From the NCBI GenBank assembly GCA_024349765.1, contig AP026073.1:1-64000 (forward strand): a DNA stretch of 64,000 nt. Direction: 5' to 3'. A model generated the notes under the pieces. The model made no database searches. It was not told the origin of the DNA and worked only from the letters and a program-made list of their open reading frames with translations. A program made the position numbers and the translations under genes. Of the stretch, positions 10,519 to 57,590 are shown piece after piece; position 1 is the first letter of the stretch, and the number at the start of each line of letters is the position of its first letter. The DNA is from Streptomyces nigrescens (GTDB taxonomy: Bacteria; Actinomycetota; Actinomycetes; Streptomycetales; Streptomycetaceae).

Positions 10519-10533
10519 CTGACGCTCCGTCAG
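10519..10533. promoter_or_regulatory. CTGACG palindrome, site 1
   Basis: The sequence reads CTGACG CTC CGTCAG, a perfect 6+3+6 palindrome, 22 bp upstream of the CoA ligase start at 10497. It is one of the perfect members of the dispersed operator set in this window. Confidence 0.8.
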
Positions 10534-10603
10534 TCAATGCGCCGAGGTTAGGGGCGGACGCCTTGTCGGTCCAGGGGTCCGGGTCTAGCCTGGTTAATCG
10601 AAT

Positions 10604-10618
10604 CTGACGAACCGTCAG
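10604..10618. promoter_or_regulatory. CTGACG palindrome, site 2
   Basis: CTGACG AAC CGTCAG is a perfect match, extended by one base pair on each side (T and A). It lies 34 bp upstream of the acyl-CoA dehydrogenase start at 10652. Together with site 1, 85 bp away, it covers both divergent promoters. Confidence 0.82.
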
Positions 10619-10651
10619 ACATGTGCGGCGGGACCGAGGTGAGGGGACACG

Positions 10652-11785
10652 ATGGACCTCGCGTACACCGAGGAGGAAGAGGACTTCCGCGCCCGGCTGC
10701 GCGGCTGGCTCGCGGGCGTCCTCCCCACCCTGCCCGCGCGCCCCGACCCGCTCGACTGGCCGGGGCGCCGCGCCTACGACACCGCCTGGCAGCGGAGGCT
10801 CTACGACGCGGGATACGCCGACGTCCACTGGGAGGCCGCCCCCACCCTGCGGCTGATCTTCCTGGAGGAGAGCGAACGCGCCGGGGCGCCCTACGTGGGC
10901 GCGAACTTCGTCGGGCTGCTGCACGCCGGGCCGACCATCGCGGCCGAGGGCACCGAGGCGCAGAAGCGGCGCTGGCTGCCGCCGGTGCTGCGCGGCGAGG
11001 AGATCTGGTGCCAGGGCTTCAGCGAACCGGAGGCGGGCTCGGACCTGGCGTCGCTGCGGACCCGCGCGGTGCGCGACGGGGACGCGTACGTGGTGACCGG
11101 GACCAAGATCTGGACCTCGCACGCCGAGGTCGCCGACTGGTGCGAACTGCTCGTCCGCACCGACCCCGCCGCCCCCCGGCACCGGGGCATCACCTGGCTC
11201 GCGATGCCCATGGACGCCCCCGGCATCACCGTCCGGCCGCTGCGCACCCTCGCCGGCTCGGCGGAGTTCGCCGAGATGTTCCTCGACGAGGTGCGGGTGC
11301 CGGCGGACTGCCGGGTCGGCGCGGAGAACGACGGCTGGCGGGTGACGATGGTGACGCTGTCGTTCGAGCGCGGTACCGCCTTCGTCGGCGAGGTGGTGGC
11401 CTGCCGGCGGGTGCTGACGGAGGTGGCCCGCCGGGCCCGGGCGAACGGCCGCTGGGACGACGCCGTGCTGCGCCGCAGGCTGGGCCGGCTGAACGCGGAG
11501 TTCGCCGCGCTGTGGCGGCTGACCCAGTGGAACGTCAGCGAGGCGCAACTACGGGGCGGCGGGCCCGGGACCGGCGGCTCGGTCTTCAAGCTCCGCTACT
11601 CGCACGCCCGTCAGGAGCTGTACGACGCGGCGGCCGAGGTGCTGGGGGCCGGCGCCTGGGACGCGGACGAGGAGTGGACCGCCGACCGGCTCTCGTCCCT
11701 CTCGTACACCATCGCGGCCGGTACGTCGCAGGTGCAGCAGAACATCATCGCCGAGCGGATCCTCGGCCTGCCGAAGGGGCGGTGA
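10652..11785 (+). CDS. Acyl-CoA dehydrogenase (FadE family), subunit 1
   Basis: This 377-aa flavoprotein desaturates an acyl-CoA at the alpha-beta position. The N-terminal helical domain is followed by the FAD/substrate motif CQGFSEPEAGSDLASL and by KIWTSHAE. The C-terminal AGTSQVQQNIIAERILG matches the usual C-terminus of family members. The start ATG at 10652 is preceded by GAGGGGACACG. Its stop overlaps the GTG start of the next dehydrogenase (GTGA), so the two are translationally coupled. Paired FadE genes of unequal length are typical of the alpha2beta2 heterotetrameric dehydrogenases known from actinobacterial steroid side-chain breakdown. That parallel is inferred from layout, not proven here. 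Confidence 0.9.
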   Translation: MDLAYTEEEEDFRARLRGWLAGVLPTLPARPDPLDWPGRRAYDTAWQRRLYDAGYADVHWEAAPTLRLIFLEESERAGAPYVGANFVGLLHAGPTIAAEGTEAQKRRWLPPVLRGEEIWCQGFSEPEAGSDLASLRTRAVRDGDAYVVTGTKIWTSHAEVADWCELLVRTDPAAPRHRGITWLAMPMDAPGITVRPLRTLAGSAEFAEMFLDEVRVPADCRVGAENDGWRVTMVTLSFERGTAFVGEVVACRRVLTEVARRARANGRWDDAVLRRRLGRLNAEFAALWRLTQWNVSEAQLRGGGPGTGGSVFKLRYSHARQELYDAAAEVLGAGAWDADEEWTADRLSSLSYTIAAGTSQVQQNIIAERILGLPKGR

Positions 11786-12783
11786 CCGGCCCGGTGCGCT
11801 TCCAACTCACCGATGAGCAAAGGGCGTTGAAGAACGCGACGCGGGAGCTGCTGGCGGCCCGGTTCGACCGGGACCGGCTGCGGGCGGCGGTCGGCGATCC
11901 GGCCCCGGACCGGGCACTGTGGCGGGAGCTGGGCGCGGCCGGGTTCTTCGCGCTGCGGCTGCCGGAGGAGGCCGGCGGCGTCGGGCTGGGGCTGCCGGAG
12001 GCGGTCCTGGTCTTCGAGGAGGCCGGGCGGGCGCTGCTGCCGGGGCCGCTGGTGGCCTGCCAGCTGCTCGCCGGAGCGGTGGACGGCGTCGCGGACGGCG
12101 AGAGGATCGTCGGGCTGTGCGACGGGGACCGGGAGCCGGTGCTGTGGGAACACCCCTGCGCCTGCGACGAGTTGATCTTGCTGGAGGGCGGCGCGCCCGA
12201 TCTCGCCCACGGCCCCGGGGGCGCGCAGGGGCGCACAGTCGGCGCATACCGGAGCGTGGCCGGCAAGGTGTCCCGCGCCCCCTTCGCCTCCGTCGACCCC
12301 CTCACCCCGCTCGCCCGCGTCACCGACCACCCGCGGACGACTCCGCTCAACGGTCCGGACGTGACCCGGCTGCGCCGCGAGGCGGCCCTGCTGACCGCCG
12401 CCCAGCAACTGGGCAGTGCGCTCCGTACCGTCGAGATGGCGGTCGGTCACGCCCGCGTGCGCACCCAGTTCGGTGCGCCCATCGGCTCCTTCCAGGCGGT
12501 CAAGCATCTGTGCGCGCAGATGCTCGTACGGGCAGAAATCGCCAGAAGTGCCCTATATGCCGCATCGGTGACGGATGAGGCCACCGATGTGGCGGGCGCG
12601 AAACTGCTCGCCGACGAGGCCGCGGTACGCAACGCCCGGGACTGCCTGCAGATCCACGGCGGCACCGGCTTCACCTGGGAGGCCGACGTCCATCTGCACC
12701 TCAAACGGGCCTGGTTGCGGGCCGGCTCCTGGGGTACGGCGGGCGAGGCGGAGGAGCTGCTGGCGGCGCAGCTGGTCGGCTGA
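11782..12783 (+). CDS. Acyl-CoA dehydrogenase (FadE family), shorter partner subunit
   Basis: The real start is the GTG at 11782, which overlaps the stop of the preceding dehydrogenase by four bases; the open frame upstream of it is spurious. The 333-aa protein is shorter than a full acyl-CoA dehydrogenase. Its middle beta-domain is reduced to a short segment around residues 120-185. It keeps the helical domains, with VRTQFGAPIGSFQAVKHLCAQM and the HGGTGFTWEADVHLHLKRAW motif near the C-terminus. Size and coupling support a heteromeric complex with the 377-aa protein. In known pairs only one subunit carries the catalytic carboxylate; I did not establish which one does here. Confidence 0.88.
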   Translation: MTGPVRFQLTDEQRALKNATRELLAARFDRDRLRAAVGDPAPDRALWRELGAAGFFALRLPEEAGGVGLGLPEAVLVFEEAGRALLPGPLVACQLLAGAVDGVADGERIVGLCDGDREPVLWEHPCACDELILLEGGAPDLAHGPGGAQGRTVGAYRSVAGKVSRAPFASVDPLTPLARVTDHPRTTPLNGPDVTRLRREAALLTAAQQLGSALRTVEMAVGHARVRTQFGAPIGSFQAVKHLCAQMLVRAEIARSALYAASVTDEATDVAGAKLLADEAAVRNARDCLQIHGGTGFTWEADVHLHLKRAWLRAGSWGTAGEAEELLAAQLVG

Positions 12784-13985: not shown

Positions 13986-14912
13986 TCAGAGGACCGCCAC
14001 CGGCGCGACCGGGGTGCCCGCGCCGCCGACGAACGGTTCGGCCATCGCGGACAGGAAGAACGCATAGCGTCCCGCCTCCGCGCAGGCCTCCGACAGCTCC
14101 TCCAGATTCCAGTTCTGCCCCTGCAGCATGCCCATCTCCACCAGGTGCAGCGCGTGCACCGGCAGCCACAGCCCCTCGATCTCCGGTGGGAAGATCTCGA
14201 ACGTCAGGGTGTCGTTGGCGACCGCCGCGACATCGCGGGCCCGGAACCACTCCGGGGTGCGCACCGACAGCCCCGGTGACGGGAAGGCGTAGCCCTGCCG
14301 GTCGCCGGCGAGGTAGTGCTGCAGCTGCCCGGTCCGTACCAGGACGACGTCCCCGGCCCGGACCCTCGTCCCGGCCAGTTCCTCGGCGGCGTCCAGGTCC
14401 TCCGGTGTGACCGCGTGCCCGCCGGGCAGCCGGTCGGTGCCGTGCGCCCGGGCCACGTCCAGCAGCACGCCCCGGGAGGTGATCGGGGTGGCCTTCTCGA
14501 TGCCGAGGACGGTGGCGCCGCCGTGGGCGGTGACGGAGGCGGCGGGGCGGTCGTTGTAGAGCCGCCCCGAGTGCGAGACGTGGGTGAGGCCGTCCCAGTG
14601 GGTCGCCGCCTGGAGGCCCATGGTGACCGCGTCGTCCGAGGTGGCGACCGTGCCCGGCCCGAAGATCTCCTGGTTGATCGCGACCATCGTGTGCAGCGGA
14701 TTGACCCGGCCCGGGATCATCCCGGTCTGCACCCCGTCCTGCCGCAGCGGCAGCGCGAGCGGCACGCGGCGCCCGCTGCGGACGCAGCCGGCGGCCTCCC
14801 GCACCACCTGCTCGGTGATCAGGTTGAGCGTGCCGATCTCGTCGTCCGCGCCCCAGCGCCCCCAGTTGTTGACGCGTCGGGCGATCTCGTGGAACTCCTG
14901 CGGCAGCGGCAT
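13986..14912 (-). CDS. Cyclase family protein (kynurenine formamidase-like metal hydrolase)
   Basis: This 308-aa protein belongs to PF04199 (putative cyclase), whose members include metal-dependent kynurenine formamidases and related amide, lactone or diketone hydrolases. The region THWDGLTHVSH is the divergent form of the HxGTHxDxPxH metal site and lies near residue 110. The protein opens with LPQEFHEIARRVNNWGRWG, typical of the actinobacterial branch. It is divergent from an SDR gene and shares a promoter region containing a CTGACG-type operator, so it is probably part of the inferred catabolic regulon. Ring or lactone opening is a reasonable guess at its role; no substrate can be read. The 256 bp between 13729 and its stop hold nothing convincing. 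Confidence 0.82.
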   Translation of the reverse strand: MPLPQEFHEIARRVNNWGRWGADDEIGTLNLITEQVVREAAGCVRSGRRVPLALPLRQDGVQTGMIPGRVNPLHTMVAINQEIFGPGTVATSDDAVTMGLQAATHWDGLTHVSHSGRLYNDRPAASVTAHGGATVLGIEKATPITSRGVLLDVARAHGTDRLPGGHAVTPEDLDAAEELAGTRVRAGDVVLVRTGQLQHYLAGDRQGYAFPSPGLSVRTPEWFRARDVAAVANDTLTFEIFPPEIEGLWLPVHALHLVEMGMLQGQNWNLEELSEACAEAGRYAFFLSAMAEPFVGGAGTPVAPVAVL

Positions 14913-14957: not shown

Positions 14958-14972
14958 CTAACGGTCCGTCAG
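14958..14972. promoter_or_regulatory. CTGACG palindrome, site 3
   Basis: CTAACG GTC CGTCAG has one mismatch to the consensus and flanking T/A symmetry. It lies between the divergent cyclase gene (start 14912) and the SDR gene (start 14995), 22 bp from the latter. Confidence 0.72.
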
Positions 14973-14994: not shown

Positions 14995-15894
14995 ATGGGG
15001 AACTTCTTGGCCGGCAAGGTGGTCGCCGTCACCGGGGCCGGGCGCGGCATCGGGCGGGCGGTGGCACTGGCCTGCGCACAGGAGGGCGCCAAGGTCGTGG
15101 TCAACGACTACGGGGTCGCCATCGACGGCGCCGGGCCGAGCAGCGAGGTCGCCGAGGCGGTGGTGAAGGAGATCGAGGCGGCCGGCGGCACCGCGACCGC
15201 GGTCGCCGACGACGTGTCCACGATGGCCGGCGGCCAGCGGATCGTCGACACCGCGCTGGCGCAGTACGGGCGGATCGACGGCGTCGTCTGCGTGGCCGGC
15301 ATCCTGCGGGAGCGGATGCTCTTCAACATGTCCGAGGAGGAGTGGGACCCGGTGGTCGCCACCCACCTCAAGGGCACCTTCACGGTCTTCCGGGCCGCGG
15401 CCGCGGTGATGCGCCGCCAGGGGTCCGGCACGCTGGTGGGCTTCACCAGCGGCAACCACCAGGGCTCGGTCTCCCAGGCCAACTACTCCGCCGCGAAGGG
15501 CGGAATCATCTCGCTCGTCCGCAGCGCGGCCCTGGGCCTGCACAAATACGGCGTGACGGCCAACGCGGTCGCCCCGGTCGCCCGCACCCGGATGTCGGCG
15601 AACGTCCCCATGGAACTCACGGAGATCGGCGAACCGGAGGACGTGGCCGCCTTCGTCGTCTACCTCCTGAGCGAGCGCGCCCGCGAGGTGACCGGCCAGG
15701 TCTACACGGTGGCCGGCCCCAAGATCGCGGTCTGGGCCCAACCGGGGGAGCTGCGCTCCGTACACGCCGACGAGGGCGGCTGGACGCCGGAACGGGTGGC
15801 GGAGGTGGTGCCTGGCGCCGTGGGCGTCGACCCGATGCCGTTGCTGGCGCAGGTGTCGGCGATGGCGGCAGCCGCGCGTGGCGCGAAGCGCTGA
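14995..15894 (+). CDS. Short-chain dehydrogenase/reductase, hydroxyacyl-CoA dehydrogenase type
   Basis: This 299-aa NAD(P)-dependent oxidoreductase has the glycine motif TGAGRGIGRAVALA near its N-terminus and the catalytic NYSAAKGG (YxxxK) about residue 162. A roughly 40-residue extension follows the core fold. Extended SDRs of this kind are often 3-hydroxyacyl-CoA dehydrogenases in beta-oxidation clusters, fitting its neighbours and the shared operator just upstream. The ATG at 14995 is preceded by GGGAAGGGGCG. A ~430-bp repeat element begins immediately after the stop. The function class is firm; the substrate is inferred from context only. Confidence 0.88.
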   Translation: MGNFLAGKVVAVTGAGRGIGRAVALACAQEGAKVVVNDYGVAIDGAGPSSEVAEAVVKEIEAAGGTATAVADDVSTMAGGQRIVDTALAQYGRIDGVVCVAGILRERMLFNMSEEEWDPVVATHLKGTFTVFRAAAAVMRRQGSGTLVGFTSGNHQGSVSQANYSAAKGGIISLVRSAALGLHKYGVTANAVAPVARTRMSANVPMELTEIGEPEDVAAFVVYLLSERAREVTGQVYTVAGPKIAVWAQPGELRSVHADEGGWTPERVAEVVPGAVGVDPMPLLAQVSAMAAAARGAKR

Positions 15895-19915: not shown

Positions 19916-20545
19916 TCAGGGGCTGAAGTGGCCGAAGGCGCCCCGGTGGAACAGGAGGGGGCCGGCCTCGGCGGCCGCCGGGTCCGTGCCGAGGGCCTCG
20001 ACGCGGCCGACGACGATGAGGTGGTCGCCTCCGGTGTGCACGGCCTGGATGGTGCAGTCGATCCAGGCCGGGACGTCGGCCAGCCGCGGTGAGCCGGTGG
20101 CCGGCGCCGGCCCGTAGGAGACGCCGGCGAACTTGTCGCCACCACTGACCGCGAATCCCCGGCACAACCCGCCCTGTTCCGCCCCGAGGACGTTGACGCA
20201 GAACACCCCGGCACGGGCGATCCGCGGCCAGGTCGTCGACGTACGCGCCACCATGAACGTCACCAGCGGCGGGTCGAGGGAGAGGGACGCGAAGGACTGG
20301 CAGGCGAAGCCGGCCGGGCCCGGTTCGCCCGGTGCCGTGATGACGGTGACGCCGCTGGCGAAGTGCCCCAGGACGGAACGGAAGGCGGCGGGGTCGAGGG
20401 GGGCGCGCTCGCCCTCGCGTACGGCGCGCAGGGCGGGCCGCGGGAGCGGTGCGGCAGGAGTGGCGGGTGCGGCGGCCGTGGTCGGTGCGCCGACCGAGCG
20501 GAGGTACCGCACGGCCGTGGCCGCCATCCCCGCGTGCCCCATCAT
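19916..20545 (-). CDS. Flavin reductase (FMN-binding, HpaC-like)
   Basis: This ~200-aa protein of the flavin reductase family (PF01613) reduces FMN or FAD with NAD(P)H for a partner monooxygenase. The core starts at FRSVLGHFASGVTVITA and continues with FACQSFASLSLDPPLVTFMVARTS, the family's flavin-binding signature. GGDHLIVVGRVEAL lies near the C-terminus. About 50 residues of low-complexity Ala/Pro precede the core, so the true start could be 20545, 20527 or further in. A CTGACG operator lies upstream at 20663. This makes it a good candidate to supply reduced flavin to the luciferase-like monooxygenases encoded at 55678 and 57666. Confidence 0.87.
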   Translation of the reverse strand: MMGHAGMAATAVRYLRSVGAPTTAAAPATPAAPLPRPALRAVREGERAPLDPAAFRSVLGHFASGVTVITAPGEPGPAGFACQSFASLSLDPPLVTFMVARTSTTWPRIARAGVFCVNVLGAEQGGLCRGFAVSGGDKFAGVSYGPAPATGSPRLADVPAWIDCTIQAVHTGGDHLIVVGRVEALGTDPAAAEAGPLLFHRGAFGHFSP

Positions 20546-20662: not shown

Positions 20663-20677
20663 CTGATGCCCCGTCAG
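20663..20677. promoter_or_regulatory. CTGACG palindrome, site 4
   Basis: CTGATG CCC CGTCAG has one mismatch. It lies 118 bp upstream of the flavin reductase start and on the far side of the sigma factor gene (start 20852). The rest of the 306-bp gap holds Pro/Ser-type low-complexity repeats (GTCC/CCGTCC words) and no gene. The flavin reductase is the likelier target. Confidence 0.7.
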
Positions 20678-20851
20678 ATGTGAAGCCATGCGGGACGGCG
20701 GCCACCCGCACGTGTGGTTTGGCGGCGTACGCGACGATCTCCCTCGGATTGGGGGGAGATTGGCGGAGGGATTCCTGATTGTGTGCCGCCCGCGCGGGTA
20801 GCGTCCACGTCGGCCGCGTCCGTAGCCGAACACGGGGGAGAGTTCCGGTAC

Positions 20852-21454
20852 ATGGCCGAGGCAACACCGTCACCACCGTCACCACCGTCATCGGCGTCGT
20901 CCGCCGCGTCGCCCACCTTCGACGAGGTCTTCTGCGGCCTGCTGCCCCGCCTCTACCGCAGGGCGGTGATGCTGGCCGGTTCGAGACAGTCCGCGGAGGA
21001 TGTGGTGCACGAGGCGTACCTCAAGCTCGCCGCCCGTCCGCAGCGCTTCCTCGCCCACCCGGAGCCGTACGCCTACGCCTTCACCACCGTCCTCAACGTC
21101 GCACGTGACGCCTACCGCAAGGACCGCCGCCAGGTCCTGGTGGACGGCCTGGAGGGCGTCGAGGAGGCCGGTACGGGCGGCGGCGCGGGGGCGGGCCCCG
21201 GCGCCGGGCCGGGCGGCTGGGACGGCGGGGTGGAGCGGCGGCACGCCGAGATCGAAGCGGTGCGCCTGCTGGGGAGGTTGTCGCACCGGCAGGCCGGCAT
21301 CGTCATCCTCGTGGACCTCGACGGCTACACCCTCGATCAGGCCGCCAGGATCATGAAGGTGCATCGCGGTACGGCCGCCCGCCATCGGGCCCGCGCGCTG
21401 GACAGGCTGCGCGCGTACCTCGTTGAATCGGAGCACGGGCAGGCCGGGAGGTGA
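20852..21454 (+). CDS. ECF-like RNA polymerase sigma factor
   Basis: The 200-aa protein has sigma region 2 from FDEVFCGLLPRLYRRAVMLAGSRQSAEDVVHEAYLK. Region 4 is EAVRLLGRLSHRQAGIVILVDLDGYTLDQAARIMKVHRGTAARHRARALDRL, split here only for description by a Gly-rich linker of about 20 residues (GTGGGAGAGPGAGPG type). The frame is open from 20714. I chose ATG 20852 because GGGGGAG stands eleven bases upstream. The stop overlaps the start of the next gene, a membrane protein, which is the usual layout for a sigma factor and its membrane-bound regulator. No target promoter can be assigned. Confidence 0.85.
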   Translation: MAEATPSPPSPPSSASSAASPTFDEVFCGLLPRLYRRAVMLAGSRQSAEDVVHEAYLKLAARPQRFLAHPEPYAYAFTTVLNVARDAYRKDRRQVLVDGLEGVEEAGTGGGAGAGPGAGPGGWDGGVERRHAEIEAVRLLGRLSHRQAGIVILVDLDGYTLDQAARIMKVHRGTAARHRARALDRLRAYLVESEHGQAGR

Positions 21455-25519: not shown

Positions 25520-25534
25520 CTGACGCACAGTCAG
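25520..25534. promoter_or_regulatory. CTGACG palindrome, site 5
   Basis: CTGACG CAC AGTCAG has one mismatch. It lies 13 bp upstream of the likely synthetase start at 25507, in tandem with site 6, 24 bp away centre to centre. Confidence 0.72.
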
Positions 25535-25543
25535 ATTACTGAA

Positions 25544-25558
25544 CTGACGCCATGTCAG
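25544..25558. promoter_or_regulatory. CTGACG palindrome, site 6
   Basis: CTGACG CCA TGTCAG has one mismatch. With site 5 it forms a tandem operator in front of the synthetase/hydratase operon. Confidence 0.72.
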
Positions 25559-25670: not shown

Positions 25671-25685
25671 CTGACATACCGTCAG
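25671..25685. promoter_or_regulatory. CTGACG palindrome, site 7
   Basis: CTGACA TAC CGTCAG has one mismatch. It lies 85 bp upstream of the DUF35 gene start at 25770 and is the third site in this divergent promoter region. Confidence 0.7.
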
Positions 25686-29352: not shown

Positions 29353-29379
29353 ATGCACTTCCACCAGATCTACGGCTGA
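29353..29379 (+). CDS. Eight-codon leader peptide upstream of the glycosyltransferase
   Basis: ATG CAC TTC CAC CAG ATC TAC GGC TGA encodes MHFHQIYG. It begins right after the putative -10 box and ends 89 bp before the glycosyltransferase start. Its last codons, CTACGGC at 29370-29376, are complementary to GCCGTAG at 29439-29445. A ribosome on this ORF could therefore change folding of the downstream RNA. Translation has not been shown, and the ORF is short enough to be chance. The promoter position and complementarity raise its standing. Confidence 0.4.
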   Translation: MHFHQIYG

Positions 29380-40983: not shown

Positions 40984-41411
40984 GGCCGCTCCAGGACCCA
41001 GCGCGGCACGGTCGTGCCGCCGGGCGGGGTGTGGAAGACGGCCCTCACGGGGGCGCCGATCCGCAGCCGCTCCGGGTCGACGGAATTGAGCGGGGCGTCC
41101 GCGGCGGTGACGAGATTGCCGACCAGGCGGATGCGGGGGGCGTCGGCCAGTTCCACGACGATCGCGTTGTAGCCGGGCAGGTCCGCGTACGCGGGCAGCA
41201 GCGGCGGGTGCGGGACGACGTAGGACCAGATGCGGCCGCGGCCGCTCATCTTCCGCCAGTGGGCGGCGAAGGACTGGCAGTGCGGGCAGCACGGCCGGGG
41301 CGGGAAGCGGAGTTCGTCGCAGTCGGCACAGCACTGGACGCGGAGTTCGCCCCGCGCGGCGTACTCCCAGAAGGGTGCGCCGTCGTCGTCGACGACCGGT
41401 GTCAGCAGCAT
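40980..41411 (-). CDS. Zn-ribbon / OB-fold DUF35 protein (thiolase partner)
   Basis: The 143-aa protein contains a rubredoxin-like zinc ribbon (CADC and CCPHC in RVQCCADCDELRFPPRPCCPHC, given in part). It is followed by an OB-fold (IWSYVVPHPPLLPAYADLPGYNAIVVELADAPRIRL in outline). Such proteins form complexes with Ltp/thiolase enzymes and gate acyl-CoA binding. It lies one base after the thiolase stop and overlaps the crotonase start, indicating a three-gene operon. The start is ATG 41411. Function is inferred from the well-known pairing. Confidence 0.87.
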   Translation of the reverse strand: MLLTPVVDDDGAPFWEYAARGELRVQCCADCDELRFPPRPCCPHCQSFAAHWRKMSGRGRIWSYVVPHPPLLPAYADLPGYNAIVVELADAPRIRLVGNLVTAADAPLNSVDPERLRIGAPVRAVFHTPPGGTTVPRWVLERP

Positions 41412-41412
41412 C

Positions 41413-42618: not shown

Positions 42619-42633
42619 CTGACGGGTAGTCAG
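42619..42633. promoter_or_regulatory. CTGACG palindrome, site 10
   Basis: CTGACG GGT AGTCAG has one mismatch. It lies 55 bp upstream of the thiolase operon start and 62 bp upstream of the FadD3-like ligase start, in the shared divergent promoter. Confidence 0.75.
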
Positions 42634-45481: not shown

Positions 45482-47032
45482 TCACCGCCGCCCGTACCGC
45501 TCCCGCAGCGCCGCCTTCAGTACCTTGTTCAGCGGGCCGCCGCGCGGCAGCTCGGCGGTGGTTTCCAGCTGTTCCGGCAGCTTCTGCGCCATCACGCCGG
45601 CCGCCCGCAGGTGCGCGGTCAGCGCGTCGAGGGTGAGCGGCGGGGCGGCCGGGTCGGCGGGCGTGATCACCGCGCAGACCCGTTCGCCGCGTTCCCGGTC
45701 CGGCAGTCCGATGACGGCCGCCTCGGCGACCGCCGGATGGGTCTGCACCAGTTCCTCGACCTCCTGGGCCGAGATGTTCTCGCCCTTGCGGATGATGATG
45801 TCCTTGAGCCGTCCGGTGAGCACGAGGTGCCCGTCGGGGCGCAGCCGGCCCAGGTCGCCGGTGTGGAAGTACCCGTCGGCGTCGAACGCCTCCGCGGTCA
45901 GTGCCGGATCGGTGTACCGCCGGAAGAGCATCGGGCCCTTGAGGGTCACCTCCCCGGTCTCCCCGGGCGCCGCCTCGCTCCCGTCGGGCCGGACGAGGCG
46001 TATTTGGGCCCCCATCACCGGCCGGCCCACCGTCCGCGCCAGCTGGTCGTCGCTGTCGTACGGCGTGCCCATCGCGATCATCGGGCACTCGGTCATGCCG
46101 TAGCCGTGCACCACCGCACACCCCAGCTCCCGCCCGGCCGCCGAGTACAGCTCCGGAGACATCGGGGCACCGCCGCCCGACAGCACCCGGAGCGTCGGGA
46201 TCAGCCGCCCGGCGTCCGGGCGGTCCCGCCGGTACCGCCGGGACTCGTCCAGGAACGCCTGGTAGAACGCGGTGCTGCCGCCGGCCATGGTCACCCCGTA
46301 CCGCCGGTAGACCGCGGCCGCCCGGCCCGGCTCGAAGCTGTCCAGCACGACCGCGGGAAAGCCGCTGACCAGCATGGCGATGACGTAGTCCGGCCCGGCG
46401 ATGTGCGCGTACGGGAAGGCGATCGAGCCGATGTCCTGGGCGGACATCCCGAGCGCGGTCGCCAGCCCGACGCCGCCGGCGATCAGACTCGCGTCGGTGT
46501 GCTCCACGCCCTTGGGTGACGAGGTGGTCCCGGAGGTGTAGTAGATCCAGCGCGTCCCGTCGCGCTCCGGCACGTCGTCCGGCAGCCCGGACGGATCCCC
46601 TACGGGCAACCCGCCCCCCACCGGCACCACCCGCACGCCGTCCCCGGCCGCCTTACGGGCCATCGCCGCGTAGTCGAAGCCGCGCCACTCGCCCGGGACG
46701 AGTACGTACTCCGCCGCCGACTCCGCCAGGATGAAGCCGACTTCGCGCTCCCGGTGCAGCGGAATGACCGGCGTCTGCACGGCCCCGAGCCGGGCCAGCG
46801 CCAGCGAGACGAGCACCGTCCCGATCCGCGTCGGCAACTGCCACGCCACCCGCGTCCCGGCCCCGATCCCCAGCCCCCGCAACCCGGCGGCCACCCGCAA
46901 CGCCTCGTCCCGCACCCCGTCGAAGCTGACGCTCCGCCCCTCCGCGTCGAAGAACATCGGCGCCCCCCGCGACGCCTCCGCCCGATACTCCACCAACTCC
47001 CAGAGCGACCGCACACGACCGACCTCGAACAC
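45482..47032 (-). CDS. AMP-dependent acyl-CoA synthetase (cyclohexanecarboxylate-CoA ligase-like)
   Basis: The 516-aa ligase is a paralogue of the one at 8986. It shares WQLPTRIGTVLVSLALARLGAVQ, YYTSGTTSSPKGVEHT, GGSTAFYQAFLDE, HGYGMTECPM and the C-terminal segment RLKDIIIRKGENISAQE (all as short landmarks). The start is the GTG at 47032, preceded by AGGAGG; the longer frame to 47131 runs through the promoter and the operator at 47084. It activates a carboxylic acid with CoA. Two similar ligases in one regulon suggest two related acids or isomers. The substrate is unknown. Confidence 0.87.
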   Translation of the reverse strand: MFEVGRVRSLWELVEYRAEASRGAPMFFDAEGRSVSFDGVRDEALRVAAGLRGLGIGAGTRVAWQLPTRIGTVLVSLALARLGAVQTPVIPLHREREVGFILAESAAEYVLVPGEWRGFDYAAMARKAAGDGVRVVPVGGGLPVGDPSGLPDDVPERDGTRWIYYTSGTTSSPKGVEHTDASLIAGGVGLATALGMSAQDIGSIAFPYAHIAGPDYVIAMLVSGFPAVVLDSFEPGRAAAVYRRYGVTMAGGSTAFYQAFLDESRRYRRDRPDAGRLIPTLRVLSGGGAPMSPELYSAAGRELGCAVVHGYGMTECPMIAMGTPYDSDDQLARTVGRPVMGAQIRLVRPDGSEAAPGETGEVTLKGPMLFRRYTDPALTAEAFDADGYFHTGDLGRLRPDGHLVLTGRLKDIIIRKGENISAQEVEELVQTHPAVAEAAVIGLPDRERGERVCAVITPADPAAPPLTLDALTAHLRAAGVMAQKLPEQLETTAELPRGGPLNKVLKAALRERYGRR

Positions 47033-47083: not shown

Positions 47084-47098
47084 CTGATGAAGCGTCAG
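47084..47098. promoter_or_regulatory. CTGACG palindrome, site 11
   Basis: CTGATG AAG CGTCAG has one mismatch and A/T symmetry outside the core. It lies 51 bp upstream of the ligase start at 47032. Confidence 0.75.
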
Positions 47099-48105: not shown

Positions 48106-51042
48106 TCAGGCGGCTGCCACCGGACGCAGCAGACGGCGCACCGCGGCTCCTTCCGGGGAATCCAGCCGCTCGTAGACGCTCAGCGCCTCCTGCCAGCACA
48201 CCCGGGCCCGGCCGGTCTGGCCCACGCCGTCCAGGGCGCGCCCGAGCAGGGTCAGGACGTTGGCGTGCCACCACTCGCCGCCGATGGCCCGGAGGGCGGT
48301 CAGGGCCTGTTCGGCGTGGTTGGCGGCCTGCGCGGGGTGACCGGCGGTCAGGTCGGTCTCGGCCAGGCGGAAGTACGTCATGCCCTCCCAGAAGCGCTGC
48401 CGGCTCGCCTGGAAGATCGCCAGGGCCTTGTTGAGTTGCTCGGTGGCGTCCTCCAGCCGCTGTGCGCGGGTGAAGGCCAGCCCGAGCGCGTACATCCCGT
48501 TGGCCAGCCGCCGGGTGGCGCCCAGCTCCCGGTAGATCGCGATGCCTTCCTGCGCCAGCCGGATCGCGGTGTCCACCCGGTCGGTGGCCAGGTGGACCCG
48601 CGACAGGTTGCACAGGGCGCTGGCCTCCGACGGCTTGTTGCGGTCCTCACGGAACGCGCTGAGCGCCTGCGTGAGGTACGCCTCGGCGTCGGCGTGGCGG
48701 CTCTGCGAGTTCGCGATGATGCCGCGGTCGTTCGGCGCGTACGAGGAGGCGAAGGCGTCCTTGGTGGCGAGGCCCAGCAGCATGGCCGACTGGGCGTGCT
48801 CGTCCGCCTTGTCGAACCGGCCGGCGAGGGTGTGCACGTTGGTGAGCGCGACGTGGATGCGGGCCTGGGCGCGCTGGTAGTCCAGCGCACGGGCGGCCTC
48901 CAGCAGGGCCATGTTCACGTGCTCGTACTGCCGGGAGTCCGCACCGGATTCGGCGAGGTCCTGCGCCAGCAGCAGCAGGTCCACCGCCCGCCGCAGGGTC
49001 TTCGGGCCGGCCGACTGCTGGGCGCACGCCAGCAGGCACCGGGCCTCGGCGAAGAGCCACTCCAGGGCTCCTATGCGGTCGGTGAAGGTGAGCCCCGCGT
49101 ACTGCGGGCACGCCATGTGGTCGGCCAGCCGGTCGCCCGGGCGCTCCAGGGTGTAGACCTCCTTGGCCGTCGCCAGGTAGAAGTCCAGCAGCCGGGAGAG
49201 CGCCGCGTCCCGTTCCGAGGGCGGGTGCTCGTCCCGTTCCGCGCACACCCGGGCGTACAGCCGGACCAGGTCGTGGAAGCGGTAGCGACCCGGCGCCGCG
49301 GACTCCAGGAGGCTGGCGTCGACGAGGGATTCGATCAGGTCTTCCGCCGAGTCGGCGTCCATGTCCAGCAGGGCGGCCGCGGCGGCGAGCGAGATGTCCG
49401 GGCCGTCGGCGAGGCCCAGCAGCCGGAACGCCCGTGCCTGGTGCGGCTCCAGCTGCCCGTAGCCCAGCTCGAAGGTGGCGGTGACCGCGAGGTCACCGGC
49501 CCGGAGCTCGTCCAGCCGCCGGCGTTCGTCGGCGAGCTTGCGGGCGAGGGTGGAGACCGTCCACGTACGCCGGGCGGCGAGCCGGGAGGCGGCGATGCGG
49601 ATCGCCAGGGGCAGGAAGCCGCAGGCGCCGACCACCGCCATCGCCGACTGCCGTTCGGCGGTGACCCGTTCCTCCCCGACGATGCGGGTGAAGAGCTTCA
49701 GCGCCTCCTCGGGGCTCATCACGTCGACGTCGATGAGGTACGCGCCCGCCAGGTCGATCAGCCGGGCGCGGCTGGTGATCAGCGCCGCGCACCCTTCCGA
49801 GCCGGGCAGCAGCGGCCGTACCTGCGCCGCGTCCCGGGCGTTGTCCAGCAGGGCCAGCACCCGGCGCCCGGCGAGGGTGGAGCGGTAGAGGGCCGCGCGC
49901 TCCTCCAATCCGTCCGGAATGGAGGAGTCCGGTGTGCCGAGGGCCCGCAGGAAGGCGCCCAGTACGGCTTCGGGTTCGGACGGGGTGTGGCCGGCGCCCT
50001 GGAGGTCGACGTAGAGCTGGCCGTCGGGGAAGTGCTCGCGGGCGGCGTGCGCGACATGCACGGCGAGGGTGGTCTTGCCGACGCCGCCGATGCCGGTGAG
50101 CGCGGAGACGGCCATGACACTGCCCTCGGCGGTGGCCAGTTGCTTGCCGAGCTCGTCGACGAAGGCGCTACGGCCGGTGAAATCGGCCACCGTGGCCGGA
50201 AGTTGCTGCGGCCGGACCACGACGGGGTCGGCGGCGTCCGGGCCGTCGATGACGACGGGCGGCGCGTCGAGATCGGTGTCCGCCCGCAGAATCCGCTGCT
50301 GCAGCTCCGACAGCGAGGCGCACGGCTCGACGCCCAGTTCGTCGTCGAGGAGGCGCCGGGTGTCGGTGTAGACCGCGAGTGCCTCCGCCTGGCGGCCGCT
50401 GCGGTACAGGGCCAGCATCAGCAGTTCGCGCAGGCGCTCGCGCAGGGGGTGGGCGGCGGTCAGGGCGGTGAGTTCGGAGACCGCGTCGGCGTGGTGGCCG
50501 AGTTCGAGGTCCAGTTCGAGGCGGGCCTCGATGAGGGACAGCCGCCACTCGTGGAGGCGGGTGCGCTGGGTGTCGGCGTACGGGCCGGCCAGGCCGGCCA
50601 GCGGCTCGCCGTCCCACAACGCCAGCGCCCGGTCGAGGAGTTCCCGGGCCCCGGCCCGGTCGCCGGCCGCCCGGGACTTCTCCGCCTCGGAGGCGTACTG
50701 CTCCGCGTGGTCGTGGTCGAGATCCAGCGGGCAGCCGTCCACCGGCCGCAGCGCATAGCCGCCCGACTCGCTGACCAGGGCCGCGGCGTCGTCGCCCAGT
50801 GCCTTGCGGAGCCGGGACGCGTACGTCCGCAGCGCGGCGAGCGCGGCGTGCGGCGGTTCGTCGCCCCACAGGGCGTCGACCAGCTCGGGCGCGGTGGCGG
50901 TCCGCCCGCCGCGCAGCAGTAGTGCGGCCAGCAGCGCTCGCTGCTGCGGGGAGCCCGCCGCCAACGGCGTTGCGCCGCGCCAGGCCCGTACGGGACCGAG
51001 CACGGTGAAGCGGAGCCGCTCCCGCCCCGGACCGTCGTCCAT
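48106..51042 (-). CDS. afsR: Pleiotropic SARP regulator AfsR
   Basis: AfsR is the ATPase-type SARP that AfsK phosphorylates and that activates afsS. The 978-aa protein has an N-terminal OmpR-like winged helix (from LRFTVLGPVRAW), then a BTAD domain (LWDGEPLAGLAGPYADTQ). A P-loop NB-ARC ATPase follows, with GIGGVGKTTLAVHVAHAA and later ALLDNARDAAQVRPLLPG and CGFLPLAIRIAASRLA. A C-terminal TPR array lies from about residue 690. The start is ATG 51042, which has AGGGGG upstream; the nine-codon longer frame from 51069 runs over that site. Downstream lies afsS. Direct repeats just upstream (51073-51115) may control it. Confidence 0.94.
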   Translation of the reverse strand: MDDGPGRERLRFTVLGPVRAWRGATPLAAGSPQQRALLAALLLRGGRTATAPELVDALWGDEPPHAALAALRTYASRLRKALGDDAAALVSESGGYALRPVDGCPLDLDHDHAEQYASEAEKSRAAGDRAGARELLDRALALWDGEPLAGLAGPYADTQRTRLHEWRLSLIEARLELDLELGHHADAVSELTALTAAHPLRERLRELLMLALYRSGRQAEALAVYTDTRRLLDDELGVEPCASLSELQQRILRADTDLDAPPVVIDGPDAADPVVVRPQQLPATVADFTGRSAFVDELGKQLATAEGSVMAVSALTGIGGVGKTTLAVHVAHAAREHFPDGQLYVDLQGAGHTPSEPEAVLGAFLRALGTPDSSIPDGLEERAALYRSTLAGRRVLALLDNARDAAQVRPLLPGSEGCAALITSRARLIDLAGAYLIDVDVMSPEEALKLFTRIVGEERVTAERQSAMAVVGACGFLPLAIRIAASRLAARRTWTVSTLARKLADERRRLDELRAGDLAVTATFELGYGQLEPHQARAFRLLGLADGPDISLAAAAALLDMDADSAEDLIESLVDASLLESAAPGRYRFHDLVRLYARVCAERDEHPPSERDAALSRLLDFYLATAKEVYTLERPGDRLADHMACPQYAGLTFTDRIGALEWLFAEARCLLACAQQSAGPKTLRRAVDLLLLAQDLAESGADSRQYEHVNMALLEAARALDYQRAQARIHVALTNVHTLAGRFDKADEHAQSAMLLGLATKDAFASSYAPNDRGIIANSQSRHADAEAYLTQALSAFREDRNKPSEASALCNLSRVHLATDRVDTAIRLAQEGIAIYRELGATRRLANGMYALGLAFTRAQRLEDATEQLNKALAIFQASRQRFWEGMTYFRLAETDLTAGHPAQAANHAEQALTALRAIGGEWWHANVLTLLGRALDGVGQTGRARVCWQEALSVYERLDSPEGAAVRRLLRPVAAA

Positions 51043-51346: not shown

Positions 51347-51361
51347 CTGACGGACCGTCAG
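51347..51361. promoter_or_regulatory. CTGACG palindrome, site 12
   Basis: CTGACG GAC CGTCAG is a perfect match. It lies 20 bp upstream of the amidohydrolase start at 51382, probably over the -10 region or the transcription start. Confidence 0.82.
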
Positions 51362-51381: not shown

Positions 51382-52599
51382 ATGGAGACCTTCCCCAGGA
51401 TCATCTCGGTGGACGACCACACGGTGGAGCCCCCCACCGTCTGGCGGGACCGGCTCCCGTCGAAGTACCAGGACACCGGCCCCCGCATCGTCCGGGCACC
51501 GCTCGCGGAAATGACCTTCGTGGGCGGCAAGTTCGCCCCGAAGATGGGCGCCCCGGGGGACGACGGGCCGATAGCCGACTGGTGGGTCTACGAAGACCTG
51601 CACCGGCCGCTGACCCGCCTCGACACCGCCGTCGGCTACGCCCGCGACGACATCAAGCTCGAAGGCATCACGTACGAGCAGATGCGCCCCGGCTCCTACA
51701 GCGTCCCCGAGCGGCTCGCCGACATGGACGTCAATCACGTGCAGTCCGCCTTGTGTTTCCCCACCTTCCCCCGTTTCTGTGGCCAGACCTTCACCGAGGC
51801 CAAGGACCGCGAGCTCGGCCTGCTGGGGGTGCGCGCGTACAACGACTGGATGGTGGAGGAATGGTGCGGCCCGCAGGCGCAGGGCCGGCTGATCCCGCTC
51901 ACCCTCGTCCCCCTCTGGGACGCGGACCTGGCGGCCGCGGAAGTACGGCGCAACGCGGCCCGCGGCGTACGGGCGGTCTGCTTCAGCGAGATCCCGCCCC
52001 ACCTGGGGCTGCCCAGCATCCACACCGACTACTGGGACCCGTTCCTGCGGGCCTGCGACGAGACCGGCACGGTCATCGCCATGCACATCGGCTCGTCGTC
52101 GAAGATGCCCTCCACCTCGGCCGACGCGCCGCCCGCCGTCGGCTCGACGATCACCTTCGCCAACTGCTGCTTCTCGATGACCGACTGGCTGATGAGCGGC
52201 AAGTTCGACCGCTTCCCCCGGCTGAGGATCATGTACGCCGAGGGCCAGATCGGCTGGATCCCCTACATCCTGGAGCGCGCCGACGTCGTCTGGGAGGAGA
52301 ACCGCGGCTGGGGCGGCGTCGCCGACAAGGTCCTCCGGCCGCCCTCCGAACTCTTCGCCGAGCACGTTCACGGCTGCTTCTTCGACGACGCCTTCGGCCT
52401 GCGCAACCTGGACGCGATCGGCGTCGGCAACGTCCTGTACGAGACGGACTACCCGCACTCCGACTCCACCTGGCCCAAGTCGAGGGAGGTCGGCGAGGCC
52501 CAGATGGGCCACCTGCCGCCGGACGTGGTGGAACGCATCGTCCGCGGCAACGCGATCGACCTGCTCGGCCTGACGGCGGAGGGCCTCTGGGCGGGCTGA
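51382..52599 (+). CDS. Amidohydrolase family 2 metal-dependent hydrolase/decarboxylase
   Basis: The 405-aa TIM-barrel protein belongs to PF04909. It opens with METFPRIISVDDHTVEPP, where the first metal site reads DDH rather than HxH. Later landmarks are CFPTFPRFCGQTF, MHIGSSSKMPSTS and YETDYPHSDSTWP, the last carrying the catalytic Asp. Relatives include ACMSD-like decarboxylases and ring-opening hydrolases found in aromatic, terpene and steroid catabolism. ATG 51382 starts the homology; the longer frame to 51190 covers the operator. There is no clear Shine-Dalgarno, so a short or leaderless mRNA is likely. It is divergent from afsR. The reaction is unknown. Confidence 0.87.
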   Translation: METFPRIISVDDHTVEPPTVWRDRLPSKYQDTGPRIVRAPLAEMTFVGGKFAPKMGAPGDDGPIADWWVYEDLHRPLTRLDTAVGYARDDIKLEGITYEQMRPGSYSVPERLADMDVNHVQSALCFPTFPRFCGQTFTEAKDRELGLLGVRAYNDWMVEEWCGPQAQGRLIPLTLVPLWDADLAAAEVRRNAARGVRAVCFSEIPPHLGLPSIHTDYWDPFLRACDETGTVIAMHIGSSSKMPSTSADAPPAVGSTITFANCCFSMTDWLMSGKFDRFPRLRIMYAEGQIGWIPYILERADVVWEENRGWGGVADKVLRPPSELFAEHVHGCFFDDAFGLRNLDAIGVGNVLYETDYPHSDSTWPKSREVGEAQMGHLPPDVVERIVRGNAIDLLGLTAEGLWAG

Positions 52600-55591: not shown

Positions 55592-55606
55592 CTGATGAAG
55601 CGCCAG
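55592..55606. promoter_or_regulatory. Weak CTGACG-type site upstream of the luciferase-like gene
   Basis: CTGATG AAG CGCCAG has two mismatches. It equals site 11 except for one base. It lies 42 bp upstream of site 13, centre to centre. It may be a decayed or auxiliary operator. Confidence 0.4.
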
Positions 55607-55633: not shown

Positions 55634-55648
55634 CTGACGGTGTGTCAG
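55634..55648. promoter_or_regulatory. CTGACG palindrome, site 13
   Basis: CTGACG GTG TGTCAG has one mismatch, with outer symmetry AG/CT adding two base pairs. It lies 29 bp upstream of the luciferase-like monooxygenase start at 55678. Confidence 0.75.
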
Positions 55649-55677: not shown

Positions 55678-56643
55678 ATGGGTGAGGGCGGCGTGTGGCG
55701 GCCTGGGGGTGGCGGGCGGCTGGCGTACGGGATGCAGTTGCCGGTGCAGGCGCAGAGCAGGGTGTTCGCGGAGGAGTGGGAGGCCGGGGCGGGGCCGCGG
55801 GACCTGGTGGAGATCGCGCGGGCCGCGGACCGGGGCGGGTTCGCGTACGTCGCCTGCTGTGAGCATCTGGCGATCCCGCGGCGGCTGGCGGAGGCGATGG
55901 GGACCGTGTGGTACGACCCGGTGGCCACGCTCGCGCATCTGGCCGCGGTGACGGAGCGGGTGCGGCTGCTGAGCCATGTGGCGGTGGTCGCCTTCCGGCA
56001 TCCGCTGCTCACCGCGAAGCAGTACGCGACGCTCGACCGGTTGTCGGGCGGGCGGCTGATCCTGGGTGTGGGCGCCGGGCACGTGGCGGAGGAGTTCGAG
56101 GCGCTGGGGGTGGACTTCGCGCGGCGGGGCGCGGTGCTCGACGAGACGATCGATGCGCTGAAGGCGGCGCTCGGGCCGGAGGAGTTCCCCGAGTTCGTCG
56201 GCGAGCGGTTCGCGTTCGATGGGCTGGGGCAGGCGCCGCGGCCCGTACAGACGCCCCGGCCGCCGATCTGGGTGGGCGGCTCCTCGCCCGCCGCCGTACG
56301 CCGGGCCGCGGAGCGCGGGGACGGCTGGCTGCCGCAGGGGGACCGGCGGGAGCAGCTGCCCCGGCAGATCGCGACGCTCCGGGCGGCGCGGGAGGCGGCG
56401 GGGGTCACCGAACCGGTGGTGATCGGGGCGATCGCCGAGCCGGTGTACGTGGGGGAGCCGGGCTGGGACGTCGGGCGGCACACCGTCCGGGGCAAGCCGG
56501 AGGCGGTCGCCGAGTCGTTGCGGGCGTACGCGGAGATGGGCGTGCGGCAGATCCAGGTGCGGTTCCGCAGCCGGAGTCGGGCCGAACTCGTCGATCAGAT
56601 GGCGGCGTTCGGGGCGGAGGTCGCCCCACACCTCTGCGTGTGA
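55678..56643 (+). CDS. Luciferase-like (LLM class) F420/FMN-dependent oxidoreductase
   Basis: The 321-aa TIM-barrel flavoenzyme shows the LLM features LIARAADRGGFAYVACCEHLA-type N-terminal pattern, ATLDRLSGGRLILGVGAGHVAEEFEALGV in the middle, and RPPIWVGGSSPAAVRRAAERGDGW later (landmarks only). Members use F420 or reduced FMN to reduce or oxygenate substrates. ATG 55678 was chosen because GGAGG is seven bases upstream; ATG 55651 is possible. It forms an operon with the SDR 58 bp downstream and is preceded by operator site 13. The flavin reductase at 19916 could serve it if it uses FMN. Confidence 0.87.
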   Translation: MGEGGVWRPGGGGRLAYGMQLPVQAQSRVFAEEWEAGAGPRDLVEIARAADRGGFAYVACCEHLAIPRRLAEAMGTVWYDPVATLAHLAAVTERVRLLSHVAVVAFRHPLLTAKQYATLDRLSGGRLILGVGAGHVAEEFEALGVDFARRGAVLDETIDALKAALGPEEFPEFVGERFAFDGLGQAPRPVQTPRPPIWVGGSSPAAVRRAAERGDGWLPQGDRREQLPRQIATLRAAREAAGVTEPVVIGAIAEPVYVGEPGWDVGRHTVRGKPEAVAESLRAYAEMGVRQIQVRFRSRSRAELVDQMAAFGAEVAPHLCV

Positions 56644-56701
56644 CACGCGGCTTCGGCAGGGACACATGGCTCCGCACCTTCATCCAGTAGGGAGTACCGG
56701 C

Positions 56702-57487
56702 ATGGGCAAGCTCGACGGGCGGGTCGTTCTCATCACCGGGGCGGCGCGTGGGCAGGGTGAGCAGGAGGCACGGCTGTTCGCGGCGGAGGGGGCGCGGGTC
56801 GTGCTGGCCGACGTCCTCGACGAGCAGGGCGAGGCCGTCGCGAAGGAGATCGGCGAGGCCGCGCGCTACGTCCATCTGGACGTGAGCCAGGAGGAGCAGT
56901 GGGTGGCGGCGGTGGCGGCCGCCCGGCAGGCGTACGGGAAGGTCGACGGGCTGGTCAACAACGCCGGGATCCTGCGGTTCAACGAGCTGACCGCCACCCC
57001 GCTGGCCGAGTTCCAGCAGATCGTGCAGGTCAACCAGGTCGGGGCGTTCCTCGGGATCAAGACGGCCGCGCCGGAGATCGCGGCGGCCGGCGGCGGCACG
57101 ATCGTGAACACGGCGTCGTACACGGGTGTGACGGGGATGGCGTACGTCGGGGCGTACACCGCGACCAAGCACGCGATCGTGGGGCTGACCCGGGTCGCGG
57201 CGCTGGAGCTCGCGGCGAAGAGGATCCGGGTGAACGCCGTCTGCCCGGGCGCGATCGACACCGCCATGAGCAACCCCGCCCAGCTCGACCCCACGGCCGA
57301 CGCCGACGAGGCCGCGGCGGCGCTGGACGAGCTGTACCGCAAGCTGGTGCCGCTGGGGCGGGTGGGGCGGCCGGAGGAGGTCGCACGGCTCGCGCTGTTC
57401 CTGACGTCCGAGGAGGACTCGGCGTACATCACGGGACAGCCGTTCGTGGTGGACGGGGGCTGGCTGGCCGGGGTGAGCGTCCTCTGA
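56702..57487 (+). CDS. Short-chain dehydrogenase/reductase (classical)
   Basis: The 261-aa enzyme has the TGAARGQGEQEARLFA cofactor motif and NNAGIL. The catalytic Tyr-Lys pair is in YTATKHAIVGLTRVAALELA, and PGAIDTAMSN is followed by the C-terminal DGGWLAGV. In streptomycete catabolic clusters such enzymes act as hydroxysteroid-, cyclohexanol- or 3-hydroxyacyl-CoA dehydrogenases. ATG 56702 follows GGGAGTACCGGC. It is in the same operon as the luciferase-like gene. The substrate is not readable. Confidence 0.9.
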   Translation: MGKLDGRVVLITGAARGQGEQEARLFAAEGARVVLADVLDEQGEAVAKEIGEAARYVHLDVSQEEQWVAAVAAARQAYGKVDGLVNNAGILRFNELTATPLAEFQQIVQVNQVGAFLGIKTAAPEIAAAGGGTIVNTASYTGVTGMAYVGAYTATKHAIVGLTRVAALELAAKRIRVNAVCPGAIDTAMSNPAQLDPTADADEAAAALDELYRKLVPLGRVGRPEEVARLALFLTSEEDSAYITGQPFVVDGGWLAGVSVL

Positions 57488-57497
57488 CGCAGTTCAT

Positions 57498-57512
57498 CTG
57501 ATGCTGCGTCAG
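57498..57512. promoter_or_regulatory. CTGACG palindrome, site 14
   Basis: CTGATG CTG CGTCAG has one mismatch. It lies 11 bp after the SDR stop, 153 bp upstream of the next luciferase-like gene. Confidence 0.72.
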
Positions 57513-57575
57513 GTAATGCCGTCCGGTGCTCTTGACGGTGCTGGGCGGTGGTGGAACAGTCGGCGCAATCGAGAG

Positions 57576-57590
57576 CTGACGGTTCGTCAG
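57576..57590. promoter_or_regulatory. CTGACG palindrome, site 15
   Basis: CTGACG GTT CGTCAG is a perfect match. It lies 75 bp upstream of the luciferase-like gene at 57666, and 78 bp from site 14. Confidence 0.82.

Follow-up and report, generated by a model that had tools for sequence, protein, structure and literature searches.

A dispersed set of palindromic operator sites in Streptomyces nigrescens and a TetR-family regulator as its probable repressor

The first 64,000 nucleotides of contig AP026073.1 of Streptomyces nigrescens (called the window below, meaning this whole stretch) contain 16 copies of the palindrome CTGACGnnnCGTCAG with at most one mismatch, mainly near genes for CoA-linked catabolism. 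We hold it probable that these palindromes are the operators of the TetR-family regulator encoded at 34358-35005 on the minus strand, which would repress a dispersed CoA-catabolic regulon as well as its own promoter until a ligand relieves the repression. The sites, their placement, their conservation and their co-occurrence with the TetR gene are direct observations.

Operator sites in the window and in the genome

Fifteen of the 16 copies had been listed in an original prediction made for this DNA. All of them are present and carry no or one mismatch; the sixteenth lies at 29376. Two palindromes described there as weaker, at 34999 and 55592, are present as well, with two mismatches each. Four copies in the window are perfect. 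At up to two mismatches the window yields 23 matches against 7.9 expected, and the highest count in 100 shuffled sequences is 15. We compared the half-site CTGACG with its 180 permutations, using the same 3-bp spacer, and with all 4096 possible half-sites. Among the permutations it ranks first for perfect copies (4, runner-up 1) and for copies with at most one mismatch (16, runner-up 5), and only fourth when two mismatches are allowed (23 versus 39, 36 and 25). The excess is specific to the 3-bp spacer: all other spacers from 0 to 12 bp together give no perfect copy and a single match at one mismatch or less. Base counts extend the consensus to ATCTGACGnnnCGTCAGAT. A palindrome with such a fixed spacer is, as a prediction from the sequence, consistent with binding by a TetR-family dimer.

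The whole genome (9.33 Mb, two contigs) was scanned with the reversed pattern as control. It holds 25 perfect sites against none for the control, and 179 against 26 at one mismatch or less. The site density in the window is 14-fold that of the remaining genome (16 versus 1.1 expected per 64 kb; Poisson P of at least 16 sites approximately 1e-13, based on the rest-of-genome density). An equal density inside coding regions or across the genome, named beforehand as the outcome that would speak against the regulon, is therefore not what we see. The proposed local character of the regulon is not retained, since the window accounts for only 4 of the 25 perfect sites, with the other 21 elsewhere, and there is a second cluster at 1.31-1.36 Mb of the larger contig (C1). 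This contig (8.25 Mb) carries all 25 perfect sites, the smaller one (C2, about 1.07 Mb) none.

Gene calls were made with our own, unvalidated gene caller. By these calls the 16 window sites are all intergenic, as had been predicted for the 15 listed. We also surveyed 704 kb of this genome, namely the window and 40 other stretches (83% coding according to the same caller), which cover every perfect site and 43, i.e. only a part, of the one-mismatch sites. Here 53 of 68 sites are intergenic (20/25 perfect, 33/43 one-mismatch).

Conservation of the sites and co-occurrence with the TetR gene

Conservation was analyzed in the neighbourhoods of the TetR gene in the best 80 of 562 relatives, all named Streptomyces (1.39 Mb in total); these loci reach only 10 kb and many are shortened by contig ends. 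Together they contain 61 perfect sites, where the reversed pattern gives 0, and 300 sites with at most one mismatch, where it gives 6. An orthologue was counted as having a site if one with at most one mismatch lies within -300 to +15 of its start. By this measure the site is kept in 70 of 72 orthologues of thiolase 30810, in all 69 of acyl-CoA dehydrogenase 32239, in all 48 of thiolase 41413, in 40 of 42 of the FadD-like ligase 42695 and in 24 of 25 of the ATP-grasp acyl-CoA synthetase. Fractions are lower for the DUF35 gene 25770 (9/15) and the flavin reductase 19916 (2/7), and the reversed control gives zero in each orthologous promoter set. Ligase 8986, dehydrogenase 10652, ligase 45482 and amidohydrolase 51382 have one orthologue each, every one with a site. 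No orthologue of the cyclase or of the short-chain dehydrogenase/reductase (SDR) at 14995 occurs in the 80 loci, because these extend only 10 kb.

The original prediction had also named genes without a site. This stands for the AfsK-like kinase (0/18 orthologues in the 80 loci) and for afsR (0/3); the monooxygenase/glycosyltransferase region does have a site, 29376, though an unconserved one. Taken together, the target classes and the site conservation support the proposed coherent catabolic regulon rather than a single operon.

Similar results are obtained at larger distance. In another genus of the same family (genome G055) the 80 kb surrounding the TetR gene contain 15 sites, all of them intergenic and most of them before the same enzymes. 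A TetR orthologue occurs in each of the 101 sampled family genomes (as three fragments in G074, as two copies in G022 and G078), and so does the motif, with 1 to 127 perfect sites per genome.

For the phylum as a whole 246 genomes were sampled, with E <= 1e-20 defining an orthologue and without correction for shared ancestry or genome size. Outside the family, eight genomes with the TetR gene hold 0, 1, 11, 5, 1, 2, 7 and 11 perfect sites (mean 4.75), whereas the 229 genomes that lack an orthologue average 0.34 (Mann-Whitney p 1.6e-7). At least five perfect sites are present in 4 of the 8 versus 2 of the 229. A site just upstream of the TetR gene is perfect in G226 and has one mismatch in G300, and in G226, G124 and G135 perfect sites precede homologues of acyl-CoA dehydrogenases, FadD-like proteins, thiolases or amidohydrolases. 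Of the 21 sites listed for these loci 19 are intergenic, leaving out locus L187; calls for locus L186 (58% GC) are unreliable, as the gene caller was trained on Streptomyces. Orthologue distribution and co-occurrence with the sites support TetR 34358-35005, the protein earlier proposed for binding tests, as the best candidate regulator.

The TetR regulator

The protein belongs to the TetR family by its Pfam scores (TetR_N 27.3 bits, cut-off 24; TetR_C_38 249 bits). It is the sole match to PF19352 (TetR_C_38) in the genome, and this domain is found in none of 14 well-known control genomes. An AlphaFold model (pLDDT 82) is nearest to EthR (TM 0.72/0.82) and also matches DesT, whose entry 3lsj contains palmitoyl-CoA, and FadR, at 14-18% identity. 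Bacterial and archaeal FadR proteins of the TetR fold respond to acyl-CoA. These fold matches make an acyl-CoA ligand plausible for the modelled protein. The recognition-helix region (S52, A54-F60) is unchanged in 17 aligned homologues down to 34% identity, taken from 17 of 33 loci. Closest among the best 80 of 562 relatives are named S. endophytica (100%) and S. noursei (97%) proteins.

The gene lies next to a kinase with PQQ repeats, and AfsR is encoded 13 kb away. Available text of one article describes SCO4421 as a TetR gene close to afsK in S. coelicolor, with lower expression in a whiA mutant, a reporter signal in spore chains and no phenotype detected upon deletion (PMC3878966). By synteny, rather than by direct sequence comparison, TetR 34358-35005 is the SCO4421 orthologue. 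AtrA was considered as its identity and dropped because the neighbours are an AfsK-like kinase and AfsR. SAV3818 may be a counterpart in S. avermitilis. In the part of the source available, SAV3818 is a positive regulator of avermectin production (PMC3742746).

A candidate autoregulatory site, the half-degenerate CTGACGGCATGACAG with two mismatches (34999-35013, minus strand), spans the TetR start codon. The same two-mismatch form is seen in 23 of 24 family loci, the window included; of the 80 Streptomyces loci, 76 share the identical site and all keep its CTGACG half. Conservation in this region extends further: of the 55 bp preceding the start (35006-35060), 52 reach an identity of 86% or more in the 80 loci (lowest 60%), and conservation stops sharply at -55. 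Since this exceeds what an operator and a -10 element need, other regulators may bind here as well. Between TetR and the kinase lies an open reading frame (35004-35771), the ATG of which overlaps the TetR ATG in CATG. It has no Pfam match, was dropped by our gene caller and has no orthologue in the 80 loci that satisfies our limits; it might be KbpA.

Promoter overlap and proposed mechanism

Several conserved promoters show a -10-like TAnnnT at a fixed distance from the operator. It stands 4 bp before the operator start in 62 of 68 promoters of dehydrogenase 32239, in 40 of 40 of ligase 42695 and in 20 of 23 of the ATP-grasp synthetase; the same offset of -4, corresponding to -12..-7, occurs in all 80 TetR promoters. 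For thiolase 41413 it is found at +23 from the operator start (41/48), which places CTGAC at -35 with a 17-bp spacer. With offset -4 toward the ligase and +23 toward the thiolase, operator 42619 thus covers two divergent promoters. The placement fits a repressor, although it falls short of proof.

Because several sites overlap -10 or -35-like elements, our best reading is that TetR acts as a repressor relieved by a ligand of the CoA-thioester type. From the data above we infer binding, repression, autoregulation, ligand, substrate and pathway. A TetR dimer would bind each palindrome and block RNA polymerase where the operator overlaps a -10 or -35 element. The repressed set would comprise CoA ligases, acyl-CoA dehydrogenases, thiolase/DUF35 pairs, enoyl-CoA hydratases, luciferase-like monooxygenase (LLM)/F420 enzymes, SDRs and amidohydrolases, and TetR might repress its own promoter too. 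An intermediate of the pathway, most likely a bulky alicyclic acid of steroid- or terpenoid-like type joined to CoA as a thioester, would then bind the C-terminal domain and lift the repression.

Substrate class and second cluster

The homologies of the targets give mixed evidence on the substrate. Ligase 42695 exceeds the NCBIfam cut-off of the FadD3 family acyl-CoA ligases (792.8, cut-off 657). Acyl-CoA dehydrogenase 10652 has 4x28 and 6wy9 as its nearest solved structures; the thiolase is nearest to 4u4e, followed by lipid-transfer enzymes including 6ok1, and the DUF35 protein to ChsH2 of 6ok1. We take 4x28 and 6ok1 to be steroid side-chain enzymes. Amidohydrolase 51382 is nearest to DitZ (199 bits) and PtmU3 (129 bits), both presumably of diterpenoid metabolism. 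Against a steroid or terpenoid substrate, the solved chains nearest to ligase 42695 are a feruloyl-CoA synthetase and a fatty-acyl-CoA synthase, ligase 45482 is closest to a salicylate-AMP ligase, and both ligase 8986 and dehydrogenase 10652 stay well under all NCBIfam cut-offs shown. Given this mixture, we put the chance of a steroid- or terpenoid-like substrate at roughly even.

The second cluster has eight sites at C1:1.309-1.362 Mb, seven of them intergenic, beside genes for a P450, an aldehyde dehydrogenase, a double acyl-CoA dehydrogenase and a MaoC hydratase. Its thiolase scores 693.9 bits, above the NCBI cut-off of 515 for steroid 3-ketoacyl-CoA thiolase, and an F420-dependent LLM enzyme is above its cut-off too. 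The cluster encodes a TetR protein of its own, a KstR homologue (134 bits to solved KstR chains) with the C-terminal family TetR_C_20. The KstR motif TnnAACnnGTTnnA has four matches in 100 kb around the cluster. They lie at C1:1326011, 1328796, 1337352 and 1346521, in four promoter regions of the steroid-type cluster. Gaps between these motifs and the CTGACG sites are 2, 48, 111 and 243 bp, the smallest at 1337352.

Elsewhere in the genome sites precede an SDR, a carboxyltransferase and an LLM enzyme. One distant site lies 235 bp from a ligase whose nearest family is steroid-22-oyl-CoA synthetase (609 bits, under its cut-off of 900), and several neighbours of distant sites have no Pfam match.

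Of note, a single chain of 731 amino acids with two acyl-CoA dehydrogenase units (L045:17377-19569) has a one-mismatch site 28 bp upstream.

Sites and genes in the window

Pfam assigns the window targets to AMP-ligases, acyl-CoA dehydrogenases, thiolase/DUF35 pairs and enoyl-CoA hydratases, and further to an ATP-grasp acyl-CoA synthetase, SDRs, a cyclase-family protein, a flavin reductase, LLM enzymes and amidohydrolases. Starting from the left, two perfect palindromes (10519-10533 and 10604-10618) share the divergent promoter region between AMP-ligase 8986-10497 (minus strand) and the acyl-CoA dehydrogenase pair 10652-12783 (plus strand). A one-mismatch site (14958-14972) separates the cyclase-family gene 13986-14912 (minus) from SDR 14995-15894 (plus); in G055 this arrangement is kept, including a one-mismatch site (locus L190). 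The site at 20663-20677 (one mismatch) precedes flavin reductase 19916-20545 (minus), the G055 counterpart of which is preceded by a perfect site. An open reading frame of the sigma-70 family (20714-21454, plus) points away from the flavin reductase, with its longest start 36 bp from the operator; this sigma factor may be part of the regulon.

Twin one-mismatch sites at 25520-25534 and 25544-25558 precede the ATP-grasp acyl-CoA synthetase 23189-25474 (minus), as twin sites do in G055, and a third (25671-25685, one mismatch) stands before DUF35 gene 25770-26429 (plus). The site missing from the earlier list (29376-29390, one mismatch), between the monooxygenase and the glycosyltransferase, has no AT flanks. 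None of 6 orthologues of the monooxygenase has it and 1 of 2 of the glycosyltransferase does, so that it is not conserved beyond the nearest relative. It is probably a chance or strain-specific site.

Further one-mismatch sites lie at 32008-32022, before the lipid-transfer-type thiolase 30810-32003 (minus), and at 32160-32174, before acyl-CoA dehydrogenase 32239-33546 (plus). A single one-mismatch operator (42619-42633) is common to the thiolase-DUF35-enoyl-CoA hydratase genes 40171-42564 (minus) and the FadD3-family ligase 42695-44278 (plus), and another (47084-47098, one mismatch) precedes AMP-ligase 45482-47032 (minus). The perfect site at 51347-51361 lies before amidohydrolase 51382-52599 (plus) and 305 bp from afsR; the orthologue in G055 (91% identical) has a perfect site as well. 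On the right, a weak site with two mismatches (55592-55606) precedes an LLM oxidoreductase, a one-mismatch site (55634-55648) the F420-type LLM oxidoreductase 55678-56643 (plus), and both a one-mismatch (57498-57512) and a perfect site (57576-57590) the LLM oxidoreductase 57666-58790 (plus). The G055 homologues of the latter two enzymes (73% and 90% identical, respectively) also have a site. Two landmarks are not targets: AfsR (48106-51042, minus; 1250 bits to AfsR chain 8k60) and the AfsK-like Ser/Thr kinase with PQQ-type repeats (35756-38386, plus; Pfam Pkinase and PQQ_2).

Weighing the evidence

A number of observations weigh against TetR as repressor of all these genes. Its own site has two mismatches and a right half that is also coding, and none of 79 Streptomyces TetR promoters has a site with one mismatch or less. 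Orthologous promoters are non-independent, all coming from the 80 closest relatives. Within the family, G068 and G098 have only one perfect site, and G068 has one reversed control match as well; outside it, G148 has a TetR orthologue and no perfect site, and perfect sites occur without a close orthologue in G250 (7), G196 (5), and G158, G174 and G291 (4 each). In the second cluster neighbours off the theme encode a metallo-beta-lactamase fold, a glycosyltransferase, an ABC transporter, a methyltransferase and a solute-binding protein; elsewhere sites also stand before a GntR regulator, a GH18 protein, an epimerase, MreB and ArgJ. Fifteen of the 68 surveyed sites lie within predicted genes. As to the promoters, the usual TAnnnT offset for thiolase 30810 is +6, within the operator (46/69), and the 18 oriented window sites show it at -4 in four cases, at +23/+24 in three, elsewhere in six and not in range in five. 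Moreover, at -4 the last T of TAnnnT is an operator base, so that the match is partly built in.

Some of these points could be explained if another, unlinked regulator bound the sites and TetR were just a conserved neighbour. TetR binding is inferred rather than observed, its own site is imperfect, and 3-7 perfect sites are present in some genomes that lack a close orthologue. Nonetheless, TetR and sites co-occur in other families of the phylum, and in G226 and G300 the TetR gene lies among sites, one of them just upstream. We therefore regard this explanation as unlikely, yet as the best survivor among the alternatives. Slightly less likely is that several TetR-type regulators use one operator, with the window cluster under TetR and the distant sites under others. 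It would account for sites before unrelated genes, every genome has weak TetR paralogues, and G250 and G196, which hold only such weak paralogues, have sites without a close orthologue; there, another regulator may use the same operator. However, the genome has a single PF19352 match, and among the matches listed the best paralogue reaches 47 bits versus at least 291 for whole orthologues.

It is less likely still that TetR activates these genes. Some family members do so, for instance AtrA as described in the accessible part of PMC3511530, and 5 of the 18 oriented window sites lack a recognisable -10 hexamer nearby. In several conserved promoters, however, the operator overlaps -10 or -35-like elements, like the KstR operator in the available text of PMC1995591. 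Finally, that the palindromes are no operators at all is highly improbable, even though six half-sites that consist purely of C and G have 16 or more copies in the window (as a sequence of 73% GC would lead one to expect) and some sites are intragenic: chance is rejected by the shuffles, the permutation ranking and the Poisson excess in the window, and mobile repeats or terminators are contradicted by the orthologous genes that keep a site in front of them, in as many as 70 of 72 loci, where the reversed control is zero.

Summarizing, we favour TetR 34358-35005 as a ligand-relieved repressor acting on the palindromes. A wider scenario is tentative and in our view rather doubtful: SCO4421-type TetR proteins might form an ancient actinobacterial master repressor of the catabolism of CoA-linked polycyclic isoprenoids (steroid-, diterpenoid-, hopanoid-like), acting in this Streptomyces alongside KstR at shared promoters and linking such catabolism to sporulation via WhiA-dependent expression of the repressor.

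Novelty and comparison with known systems

In a search with spellings of the motif we found no paper naming this box, most subscription journals being outside its coverage. In this respect the original remark that the regulator is not a recognised one holds, whereas its gene can be placed by synteny as that of SCO4421 (in the available text of PMC3878966). Among the matches listed SCO4421 occurs in that article only, and other mentions may exist; the string 'SCO44' is absent from the accessible part of PMC5539140, and among the matches listed for diterpenoid catabolism nothing concerns its regulation. The operator, the target set and the assignment to an SCO4421-type protein appear to be new within the searchable literature. 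This matters because the TetR gene has an orthologue in every sampled family genome and sits beside the antibiotic regulators afsK and afsR, while its S. coelicolor counterpart (by synteny) is without an assigned function. Naming its operator, its targets and the class of its substrate opens its role to direct tests. One prediction is that a pathway for bulky CoA-linked compounds is present but repressed in many Streptomyces; another is that two repressors act on some of the promoters in the steroid-type cluster.

In their predicted fold EthR, DesT and the bacterial and archaeal FadR proteins resemble the window TetR, at the low identities given above. The 64-kb window contains no match to the KstR motif, and both the window and five second-cluster loci contain none to AnCAAGnnCTTGnT, which we take to be the KstR2 motif; by these counts KstR and KstR2 are ruled out as the window regulator. 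SCO4421 is likewise a TetR gene near afsK, as the window TetR is beside the AfsK-like kinase, but in the available text it is described by its whiA-dependent developmental expression and not by operator, targets or function (PMC3878966). The KstR regulon (Rv3574 / MSMEG_6042), with motif TnnAACnnGTTnnA and an operator overlapping the -10 element, is described in the accessible part of PMC1995591. Much as proposed here for the window TetR, this TetR-family repressor is autoregulated and governs a large lipid or steroid catabolic regulon through a dispersed, mostly intergenic palindromic operator. Differences lie in the sequence and spacing of the operator and in the C-terminal domain (TetR_C_20 in the KstR homologue, TetR_C_38 in the window TetR). 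Dispersed catabolic regulons under a TetR repressor are a known kind, with KstR as the example.

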